From: Chitinophagaceae bacterium | Lineage (GTDB): Bacteria; Bacteroidota; Bacteroidia; Chitinophagales; Chitinophagaceae | Direction of reading: 5' to 3' | Length of the DNA: 36,646 bases | Assembly: GCA_947380605.1 (NCBI GenBank) | Contig: CANCRO010000021.1 | Coordinates: forward strand, 1 to 36,646 | Part shown: piece by piece, positions 92 through 2,738 of the stretch | Numbering within the stretch: the stretch's first letter is position 1 | Layout of the letters: each line of letters starts with the position of its first letter | Program-made: the position numbers and the translations under genes | Notes under the pieces: generated by a model | What the model was told of the DNA's origin: nothing | Databases searched by the model: none | Seen by the model: only the letters and a program-made list of their open reading frames with translations

Positions 92-1588
92 ATGTTAACT
101 CAAGTATCCATCATATTTCCCCATCAATTATACAAGGAACAGCCTGCAATTAGTTCTGATAGACCTGTCTATTTGGTGGAGGAATGGCATTTTTTTAATC
201 AATACCAATTTCACAAAGAAAAGCTTGTCCTGCATAGGGCTAGTATGAAATTTTATGAACAGTTTCTAAAAGAGCAGGGGGTTGTGGTACATTATATTGA
301 ATCAATTGAAGCACAAAACAGATGCGAATTACTTGTCGAAAAGCTTCATGCCAATGCTATCAAACACATACATATTGTAGATCCAGTAGATAACTGGTTG
401 TTACGGAAAATTAAATCTAGTTGCAAACTATTAGAGATTGAACTAACCATTTATGATAGTCCTAATTTTTTAAATACTTTAAATCAAGTAGATACTTTTT
501 TTTCTAAAAAGAAAACCTATTTTCAAACGGATTTTTACACCTGGCAAAGAAAGTCGAGAAATATTTTACTTGAAAAAGACGGTAAACCATTGGGCGGAAA
601 ATGGACTTATGATGCAGATAACCGATCTAAATTTCCTAAAAAAGAACTAGCCCCTAAAATACCATCTGCCCCGCTAAACAATTATATAAATGAAGCGGCA
701 ATTTATGTACAGAATAATTATACGAATAATTATGGATCAGTAAATAAAGATCATTTATTTGTCATCAATTTTGTTGATACTGAAAAATGGCTTGAAGAAT
801 TTTTACAAGACCGATTTGAAAAATTTGGGGTATATGAAGATGCAATTGTAGCAAAAGAATCCGTTTTGCATCATTCTCTTCTCTCTCCAATGCTTAATAT
901 TGGTTTAATAACTCCTCAACAAATTATAGACCGTGCAATAGCCTTTTCAATTAAAAATACTATTCCATTAAATTCTTTAGAAGGCTTTATTAGACAAATA
1001 GTAGGTTGGCGAGAATTTATCAGAATTGTATATGAGCAGGAAGGTTCAAAACAAAGAACTACTAATTACTGGAAATTTACTAGAAAAATTCCGGCAAGTT
1101 TTTGGAACGGTACCACAGGTATTGCGCCTATTGATATTACCATAAAAAAGGTATTAGCCACTGGATATTGTCATCATATTGAAAGGCTTATGGTGCTAGG
1201 TAATTTTATGCTCTTATGCGAATTTGATCCAAATGAAGTTTATAAGTGGTTCATGGAAATGTTTATTGATGCGTATGATTGGGTAATGGTGCCCAATGTT
1301 TACGGCATGACACAGTTTGCAGATGGAGGATTAATGACCACTAAGCCCTACATAAGTGGAAGCAATTATTTAATGAAGATGAGTGACTATGAAAAAGGTG
1401 AATGGCAAGAAATTTGGGATGGTTTATTTTGGCGATTTATGCATGAGCATAGGTCCTTTTTCTTAAGCAATCCAAGAATTGGGATGCTTGTACATACTTT
1501 TGATAAGATGAATGCTGATAAAAAAGCATTCCATTTATTCAATGCTGAAAAATTTTTAAAGGAATTAGATAATCAAAATAACAGATAA
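92..1588 (+). CDS. Cryptochrome/photolyase of the FeS-BCP (DPRP) type, lacking Fe-S cysteines
   Basis: Flavin-dependent blue-light photolyase/cryptochrome of the prokaryotic FeS-BCP group, whose studied members repair (6-4) photoproducts. Residues about 5-180 form the DPRP alpha/beta antenna domain, ending in a GGKWTYDADNR block (168-178). Residues about 220-498 are the helical FAD domain, with QIVGWREFI (302-310), the HHIERLMVLGNF block carrying the conserved His pair (361-362), and DAYDWVMVPNVYGM (393-406). The 498-residue length is normal for the group. The protein has only four cysteines (78, 111, 360, 376). None sits where the group's 4Fe-4S ligands lie: the TGMxC position reads TGIAP (343-346), and the segment after MSDY (430-433) is EKGEWQEIWDG with no Cys. 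It is probably cluster-free. The next gene starts 25 nt downstream, so the two are likely co-transcribed. Family is secure; lesion specificity is inferred. Confidence 0.9.
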   Translation: MLTQVSIIFPHQLYKEQPAISSDRPVYLVEEWHFFNQYQFHKEKLVLHRASMKFYEQFLKEQGVVVHYIESIEAQNRCELLVEKLHANAIKHIHIVDPVDNWLLRKIKSSCKLLEIELTIYDSPNFLNTLNQVDTFFSKKKTYFQTDFYTWQRKSRNILLEKDGKPLGGKWTYDADNRSKFPKKELAPKIPSAPLNNYINEAAIYVQNNYTNNYGSVNKDHLFVINFVDTEKWLEEFLQDRFEKFGVYEDAIVAKESVLHHSLLSPMLNIGLITPQQIIDRAIAFSIKNTIPLNSLEGFIRQIVGWREFIRIVYEQEGSKQRTTNYWKFTRKIPASFWNGTTGIAPIDITIKKVLATGYCHHIERLMVLGNFMLLCEFDPNEVYKWFMEMFIDAYDWVMVPNVYGMTQFADGGLMTTKPYISGSNYLMKMSDYEKGEWQEIWDGLFWRFMHEHRSFFLSNPRIGMLVHTFDKMNADKKAFHLFNAEKFLKELDNQNNR

Positions 1589-1613: not shown

Positions 1614-2738
1614 ATGCAAGAGTATACTAATTTTTTTTCTACCGATTACGACTCTATTATTGATAAAATAAATGCAATTCATCCTGAGAAATATTCTAAA
1701 ACAAGAAATTTCTTGAATGGAGAGGTAACTTATTTATCGCCTTATATTTCAAGAGGTGTGCTATCGACAAAGCAGGTAATGGACATGGTTTTAAACAATG
1801 GCTTTACTTTCTTTCAAAGTGAAAAATTAATTCAAGAGCTTGCATGGCGTGAATATTATCAAAGGGTATGGCAAGTTAAAAAAGAACAAATTTGGGATGA
1901 TTTAAAACAAGTACAACCAGCTGTTGATCATTATGAAATGTTGGCCTCTTTATTAAACTGTACTACAGGTATTCAAGTAATTGATGAACATATTCAGCGC
2001 TTATATCAAACAGGTTATATACATAATCATATAAGAATGTATTTAGCTTCAATTACCTGTAATATTGGAAAGGCACATTGGAAAATACCTGCTAAATGGA
2101 TGTACTATCATTTGTTGGATGGGGATATAGCAAGTAATAATTGCAGTTGGCAATGGGTGGGTGGATCATTTTCTTCAAAAAAATATTATTGCAATCAAGA
2201 TAATATTAATAAGTACACTCATTCACATCAAACGGGTACTTTTCTAGATGCTTCTTATGAGCAAATTACCGATATAAAAGTACCTGATACTTTATCAGTT
2301 TCAACTTCATTGAAACTACACACTATTTTACCTGACACAAAACTTCCTATACTAGATTTGAGTAAACCTACACTCTTATACAACTCATACAACCTAGACC
2401 CAAATTGGCGAGCAAAAGAAAATGTCAATAGGGTATTAATTTTAGAGCCATCTCATTTTAATGAAAACCCTGTTAGCGAAAAGGTTTTATATTTCATCCT
2501 TGAGCTTTCGAAAAATATTCCAGACATACAAGTATTTGTCGGAGAAATAGCAGCAATTGTAAAGCTTTATAATGAAAACCATATTGAAACAACGAAAGTA
2601 ATTATTTCAAAAGAACATCCAGCATTTGAATACTACCCCGGTATTAAAGATCAGCGCGATTGGTTATTCCCATCAGTTTCGGGATACCATTCTTCCTTTT
2701 TTAATTTTTGGAAAAAATGTGCTCAATCAATTCAATAA
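1614..2738 (+). CDS. Photolyase/cryptochrome with N-terminal FAD domain and apparent C-terminal alpha/beta domain (possible circular permutation)
   Basis: Photolyase-superfamily flavoprotein. The FAD-binding domain begins almost at residue 1 instead of after a ~200-residue antenna domain. LSPYISRGVLS (41-51), QELAWREYY (74-82), TTGIQVIDEHIQRLYQTGYI with following HNHIRM (117-142) and DGDIASNNCSWQW (169-181) match the family's FAD- and substrate-binding blocks, and the ASNN motif and the Trp of the electron-transfer chain are kept. After about residue 245 comes a ~130-residue tail with alternating strands and helices: TLLYNSYNLDPNW (253-265), NRVLILEP (272-279), helix 286-300, IQVFVGE (305-311), TKVIISKEHP (327-336). 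This resembles the normally N-terminal Rossmann-like domain, moved to the end. The family call comes from motifs. The permutation is inference from order and secondary-structure pattern. It lies in the same operon as the preceding photolyase. Confidence 0.85.
   Translation: MQEYTNFFSTDYDSIIDKINAIHPEKYSKTRNFLNGEVTYLSPYISRGVLSTKQVMDMVLNNGFTFFQSEKLIQELAWREYYQRVWQVKKEQIWDDLKQVQPAVDHYEMLASLLNCTTGIQVIDEHIQRLYQTGYIHNHIRMYLASITCNIGKAHWKIPAKWMYYHLLDGDIASNNCSWQWVGGSFSSKKYYCNQDNINKYTHSHQTGTFLDASYEQITDIKVPDTLSVSTSLKLHTILPDTKLPILDLSKPTLLYNSYNLDPNWRAKENVNRVLILEPSHFNENPVSEKVLYFILELSKNIPDIQVFVGEIAAIVKLYNENHIETTKVIISKEHPAFEYYPGIKDQRDWLFPSVSGYHSSFFNFWKKCAQSIQ

Follow-up and report, generated by a model that had tools for sequence, protein, structure and literature searches.

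Inverted domain order in a probable photolyase gene of Bacteroidota

A gene near the start of the window (the whole 36,646-nucleotide stretch of Chitinophagaceae DNA analyzed here) poses the question of whether a photolyase can carry its two domains in the reverse of the canonical order, or whether a short photolyase has instead been joined to some other C-terminal domain. The open reading frame check of the window gave a complete forward-strand frame with an ATG start, and the features relevant to this question are as follows:

92..1588, + strand: DPRP (PF04244) photolyase-related protein of the prokaryotic (6-4) photolyase type (Pfam 1.5e-55), upstream of the gene with a 25-base gap
1614..2738, + strand: complete gene, probably an inverted-topology photolyase (NewPHL/SPL class), 374 aa plus stop
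1614..2300, + strand: N-terminal helical FAD/catalytic domain, aa 1-229; solved photolyases match at Z about 17 (model residues 1-229)
1830..2204, + strand: FAD_binding_7 core, aa 73-197 (Pfam E 5.6e-21), with E75, W78, N138, H139, R141, M142, W156, D169, D171, N175, W179 and W181 mapped by alignment
2229..2369, + strand: interdomain linker, aa 206-252, the least conserved part of the protein
2370..2735, + strand: C-terminal alpha/beta domain, aa 253-374 (model pLDDT 95.3; top 13 VIA-align rows; bridging profiles)

The first-pass annotation placed all photolyase FAD motifs in the first ~205 residues, and they were indeed found within residues 27-197, with the Pfam match to FAD_binding_7 (PF03441) at 73-197 and positions equivalent to class I functional residues spanning E75 to W181 in the alignment. 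The Pfam scan of the 374-aa protein gave no significant match C-terminal of residue 197. The full-length AlphaFold2 model, built with 78 homologues, reached a pLDDT of 96.6 and a pTM of 0.93, and its FAD domain matched 1dnp_A at Z 17.6. PDB 7pub_Ff, a component of a Trypanosoma brucei mitoribosomal small-subunit assembly intermediate, also gave a photolyase FAD domain match (Z 16.5).

The proposed beta-alpha-beta units after residue 245 correspond to an ordered beta-alpha domain in the model, although the domain proper starts near residue 253. Its strands lie at 253-257, 272-277, 305-309, 330-333 and 344-346, separated by helices, and the final helix spans 362-373. The disordered tail that the annotation had named as a contrary outcome is not seen, identity is at least 90% at 27 of its 122 columns in an alignment of 78 sequences, and every sampled relative possesses it. 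The C-terminal part is ordered and conserved, the product neither of disorder nor of chance. Near-invariant residues of this domain (window aa 258-341) favor sites just after strands (11/32 versus 16/90 positions, p 0.048), which is where Rossmann-like folds bind their ligands; this is a weak hint that a pocket has been kept. The domain is poorly covered by annotation: no significant match to it came from the curated libraries searched, and PGAP names the relatives merely "FAD-binding domain-containing protein".

Identity of the C-terminal domain

The C-terminal domain was modelled by itself (pLDDT 95.3) and compared with the PDB by VIA-align and Foldseek, and the two comparisons differed in outcome. 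Rows 1-13 from VIA-align all held photolyase/cryptochrome N-terminal domains, aligned collinearly, including 3zxs_A (Z 6.9, 122 residues aligned, chain 1-159) and 1dnp_A (Z 6.3, chain 1-165), while Foldseek returned no match below E 0.001. Taken alone, a Z of 6.9 is a value that common alpha/beta folds also reach.

The check proposed in the annotation was a direct match between PF00875, the N-terminal antenna domain of canonical photolyases, and residues 245-374; at the sequence level it was not significant. In direct profile comparison (hhalign) of the Bacteroidota C-terminal domain with class I N-terminal domains, 57 of 150 shuffles were equally good; the direct comparison with alphaproteobacterial C-terminal domains was likewise not significant, and a Pfam scan of 76 C-terminal domains found no family common to more than one member. 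Linking the domain to PF00875 requires either structure or intermediates.

Such intermediates occur in Deinococcus. "FAD-binding domain-containing proteins" of this genus have a PF00875 match after the FAD domain (E 7e-4 and 1e-3), as does a separately encoded alpha/beta protein of Deinococcus sp. QL22 (E 2.3e-4), and a phmmer search of the PDB with a Deinococcus C-terminal domain gave no significant match. The window-type domain matched the domains of QL22 and of a two-gene locus in the window's own phylum (L139, described below) at E 2.3e-5, and Deinococcus-type domains matched class I N-terminal domains at E 6.7e-6; in each of these profile comparisons, 0 of 150 column shuffles scored as well. 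In BLASTP, the window protein and a Deinococcus protein align in one piece from the FAD domain on into the alpha/beta region (aa 3-338, E 7e-42). The sequence tie to PF00875 is indirect, running through the Deinococcus intermediates. Together, the fold match and the bridging profiles support the equivalence of the C-terminal domain to the antenna domain, as the annotation had suspected from its resemblance, and favor a natural permutant in the sense of the order of two whole domains.

Catalytic residues and class membership

Functional positions were assigned in E. coli numbering via Klebsiella PhrB as a proxy together with an E. coli alignment, and 22 inverted proteins were compared. Residues E75, W78, N138 and R141 of the window protein correspond to E274, W277, N341 and R344; M142, D169, D171 and N175 to M345, D372, D374 and N378; and W156, W179 and W181 to W359, W382 and W384. 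The combination of N138 and M142 at positions 341 and 345 is of the CPD type; animal (6-4) photolyases have His at both. At the R342 position, the window protein and nearly all the inverted proteins carry His. Trp is absent from the W306 position in all 22 inverted proteins (0/22 exceptions), which leaves a Trp dyad (W179, W156), and a Trp dyad is also known from the D. shibae NewPHL (PMC8948257). N175 supplies the Asn at FAD N5, a residue reported to be conserved in NewPHL (PMC12083526).

These traits can be set against several described groups. NewPHLs/SPLs are described as repairing CPDs in single-stranded DNA and as having inverted domain topology (PMC13274461, citing Emmerich et al. 2020, NAR gkaa1147). 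Prochlorococcus Phr7 consists of a FAD domain followed by a short C-terminal "Z-domain" (PMC9426592), and the window protein resembles NewPHL and Phr7 in having its FAD domain first and a short alpha/beta domain of this kind last, no Fe-S cysteines, a Trp dyad and the flavin Asn. It differs in belonging to a Bacteroidota branch; its identity to the Ruegeria relative (P0006) is 32%, over the FAD domain only, and no direct match was obtained between the C-terminal domains of these two branches. SPLs, as PMC9649867 relates the account of Xu et al. (2021, MBE msab191), are short photolyase-like proteins said to lack an antenna domain, with a FAD domain close to class I/III. The window protein is also short and near class I/III in its FAD domain, but its C-terminus carries an alpha/beta domain, and hence for this protein "lacks" becomes "moved". 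In Synechococcus and Cyanobium, the FAD and photolyase domains are inverted either as two adjacent genes (phr4+phr5) or fused with the FAD domain first (Cyanobium phr6), as published in 2022 (PMC9426592); the window gene is of the fused form. The CxxC...C Fe-S cysteines found after the FAD domain in Deinococcus relatives (P0002, P0003, P0005 and P0007) are missing from the window protein. This absence excludes only the Phr4/Phr6-type sub-branch, since Phr7 and NewPHL also lack them (PMC9426592).

Other classes fit less well. Class I CPD photolyases of the E. coli PhrB type share the FAD domain fold and the lesion-binding residues but carry PF00875 before the FAD domain, whereas the window protein begins with the FAD domain, lacks the third Trp and has His for R342. 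The score against the DASH cryptochrome model (TIGR02765) was 73.6 bits, compared with a curated cut-off of 317. The DPRP (PF04244) N-terminal domain of FeS-BCP/prokaryotic (6-4) photolyases is absent from the window protein and present in its neighbor at 92-1588.

We conclude that the window gene very probably (at a probability of roughly 0.87) encodes a CPD photolyase of the NewPHL/SPL class, with the FAD domain first and the antenna-equivalent alpha/beta domain last. In such a protein, FAD would be bound in the N-terminal domain and reduced under blue light through the two-Trp chain W179 and W156. The CPD would be held by E75, W78, N138 and M142 and split by an electron from excited FADH-. 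By analogy with the activity reported for NewPHL, the probable substrate is single-stranded DNA. The C-terminal domain may close or support the FAD site.

Relatives and genomic context

Full-length or near full-length relatives were found in 18 of 59 related genomes, and relatives with the same domain order in 17 of 296 genomes of the phylum. The best 80 loci kept from the genome_contigs collection, which include named isolates, nearly all carry Bacteroidota labels, a few having other or unspecific ones, and are mostly 46-60% identical. A viral contig collection contained no relative. One copy, near a contig end (L020, G009:C107), matches aa 36-320 and then, in a region containing a TAA stop, 337-372; it may be a broken gene or reflect a sequence error. 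A Bacteroidota-type copy lies in a MAG labelled Rhodobacteraceae (L057, CALSPC010000007.1), through misbinning or horizontal transfer. In a 409-aa member (L156, G239), extra residues lie both in the linker and ahead of the KEHP motif.

In a tree built from the FAD domains of 43 proteins, one branch sets the 22 inverted ones apart from the others (88% of bootstrap trees) with support of 91/80, a value below the usual threshold and not decisive, in a set composed without the sequence of any biochemically tested NewPHL. The Bacteroidota inverted proteins form their own group (99/99).

In 42 of 81 loci, a DPRP homologue is found close to the gene. Flavin reductase-like proteins (PF01613) are recurrent neighbors in loci L023-L102 (for example L089:4679-5569(-) and L068:2267-2815(+)). 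Of the phylum genomes that carry the gene, 1 of 17 also has a DASH cryptochrome; among those lacking it the figure is 70 of 279 (p 0.055, one-sided, the genomes not being independent). NewPHL has been regarded as a substitute for DASH; the scarce co-occurrence fits this substitution and is no proof of it.

Alternative explanations

The same architecture could belong to a blue-light sensor with a cryptochrome-like function rather than to a repair enzyme, and the presence of a class I photolyase elsewhere in the genome, with the DPRP photolyase next door, would leave room for such a role. We consider this unlikely: the window protein retains the flavin Asn as well as the counterparts of the CPD-binding residues E274, W277, N341 and M345, it has no C-terminal signalling extension, and characterised NewPHLs repair CPDs (PMC13274461, PMC9426592).

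It is more improbable still that a short photolyase acquired an unrelated Rossmann-like domain of the UspA/HUP type at its C-terminus, with no swap of domain order. Such an origin would agree with the missing direct Pfam match of the Bacteroidota domain, with the first unrelated VIA-align row, a universal stress protein (UspA) at Z 5.4, and with the universal stress proteins and PPAT among the weak Foldseek matches. However, the photolyase N-terminal domains rank above UspA and cover the entire domain, last helix included; in a scan of all Pfam, the Deinococcus intermediates match PF00875 and not UspA; and the bridge alignments are better than every shuffle. The fold match and the PF00875 bridges also weigh against the photolyase with a different C-terminal domain that the first-pass annotation had offered as its second option. 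Finally, the idea that misassembly or a frameshift fused two genes in the wrong order had nothing found in its favor and is refuted by the relatives, since ones with this order throughout occur in 17 of the 296 phylum genomes and among the best 80 loci. The inverted photolyase described above remains our reading of this gene.

Two-gene forms and their implications

Two loci encode the FAD and alpha/beta domains separately, as marine Synechococcus does with phr4+phr5 (PMC9426592):

L169:2896-3669, Deinococcus sp. QL22 plasmid: FAD-only protein, 257 aa, with CxxC..C
L169:3666-4187, Deinococcus sp. QL22 plasmid: separate alpha/beta protein, 173 aa, annotated as hypothetical
L139:1486-2277, - strand, genome G367 of the window's phylum: FAD protein, 263 aa
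L139:1043-1489, - strand, genome G367: alpha/beta ORF, 148 aa, overlapping the preceding FAD gene

The overlapping adjacent genes of Deinococcus sp. QL22 are a split inverted photolyase. The small protein of L139 had no Pfam match at E 0.01, and it aligns with the Deinococcus domains in profile comparison. Among 98 genomes of the class to which G367 belongs, no more two-gene cases were found. We tentatively raise the possibility, which we hold to be doubtful, that SPL/NewPHL always kept the alpha/beta domain and that the ancestor of the photolyase/cryptochrome family consisted of two genes (FAD, then alpha/beta) whose fusion took opposite orders in separate lineages.

The annotation called the arrangement unusual, and this holds in part: it departs from the canonical order, but an inverted class has already been published (PMC13274461, PMC9426592). 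Since that class has been described since 2020, the window gene is a Bacteroidota member of it. Set against NewPHL/SPL as the citing papers describe them, our additions are modest: the Bacteroidota branch, the stepwise bridge by which its C-terminal domain is tied to the antenna domain, and two more examples of the two-gene form. The gene independently confirms a natural, widespread photolyase class with its two domains in inverted order. The antenna-domain identity of the Bacteroidota C-terminal domain is also relevant to the argument that the absence of that domain makes short photolyases ancestral, and a two-gene ancestor, if true, would undercut it.
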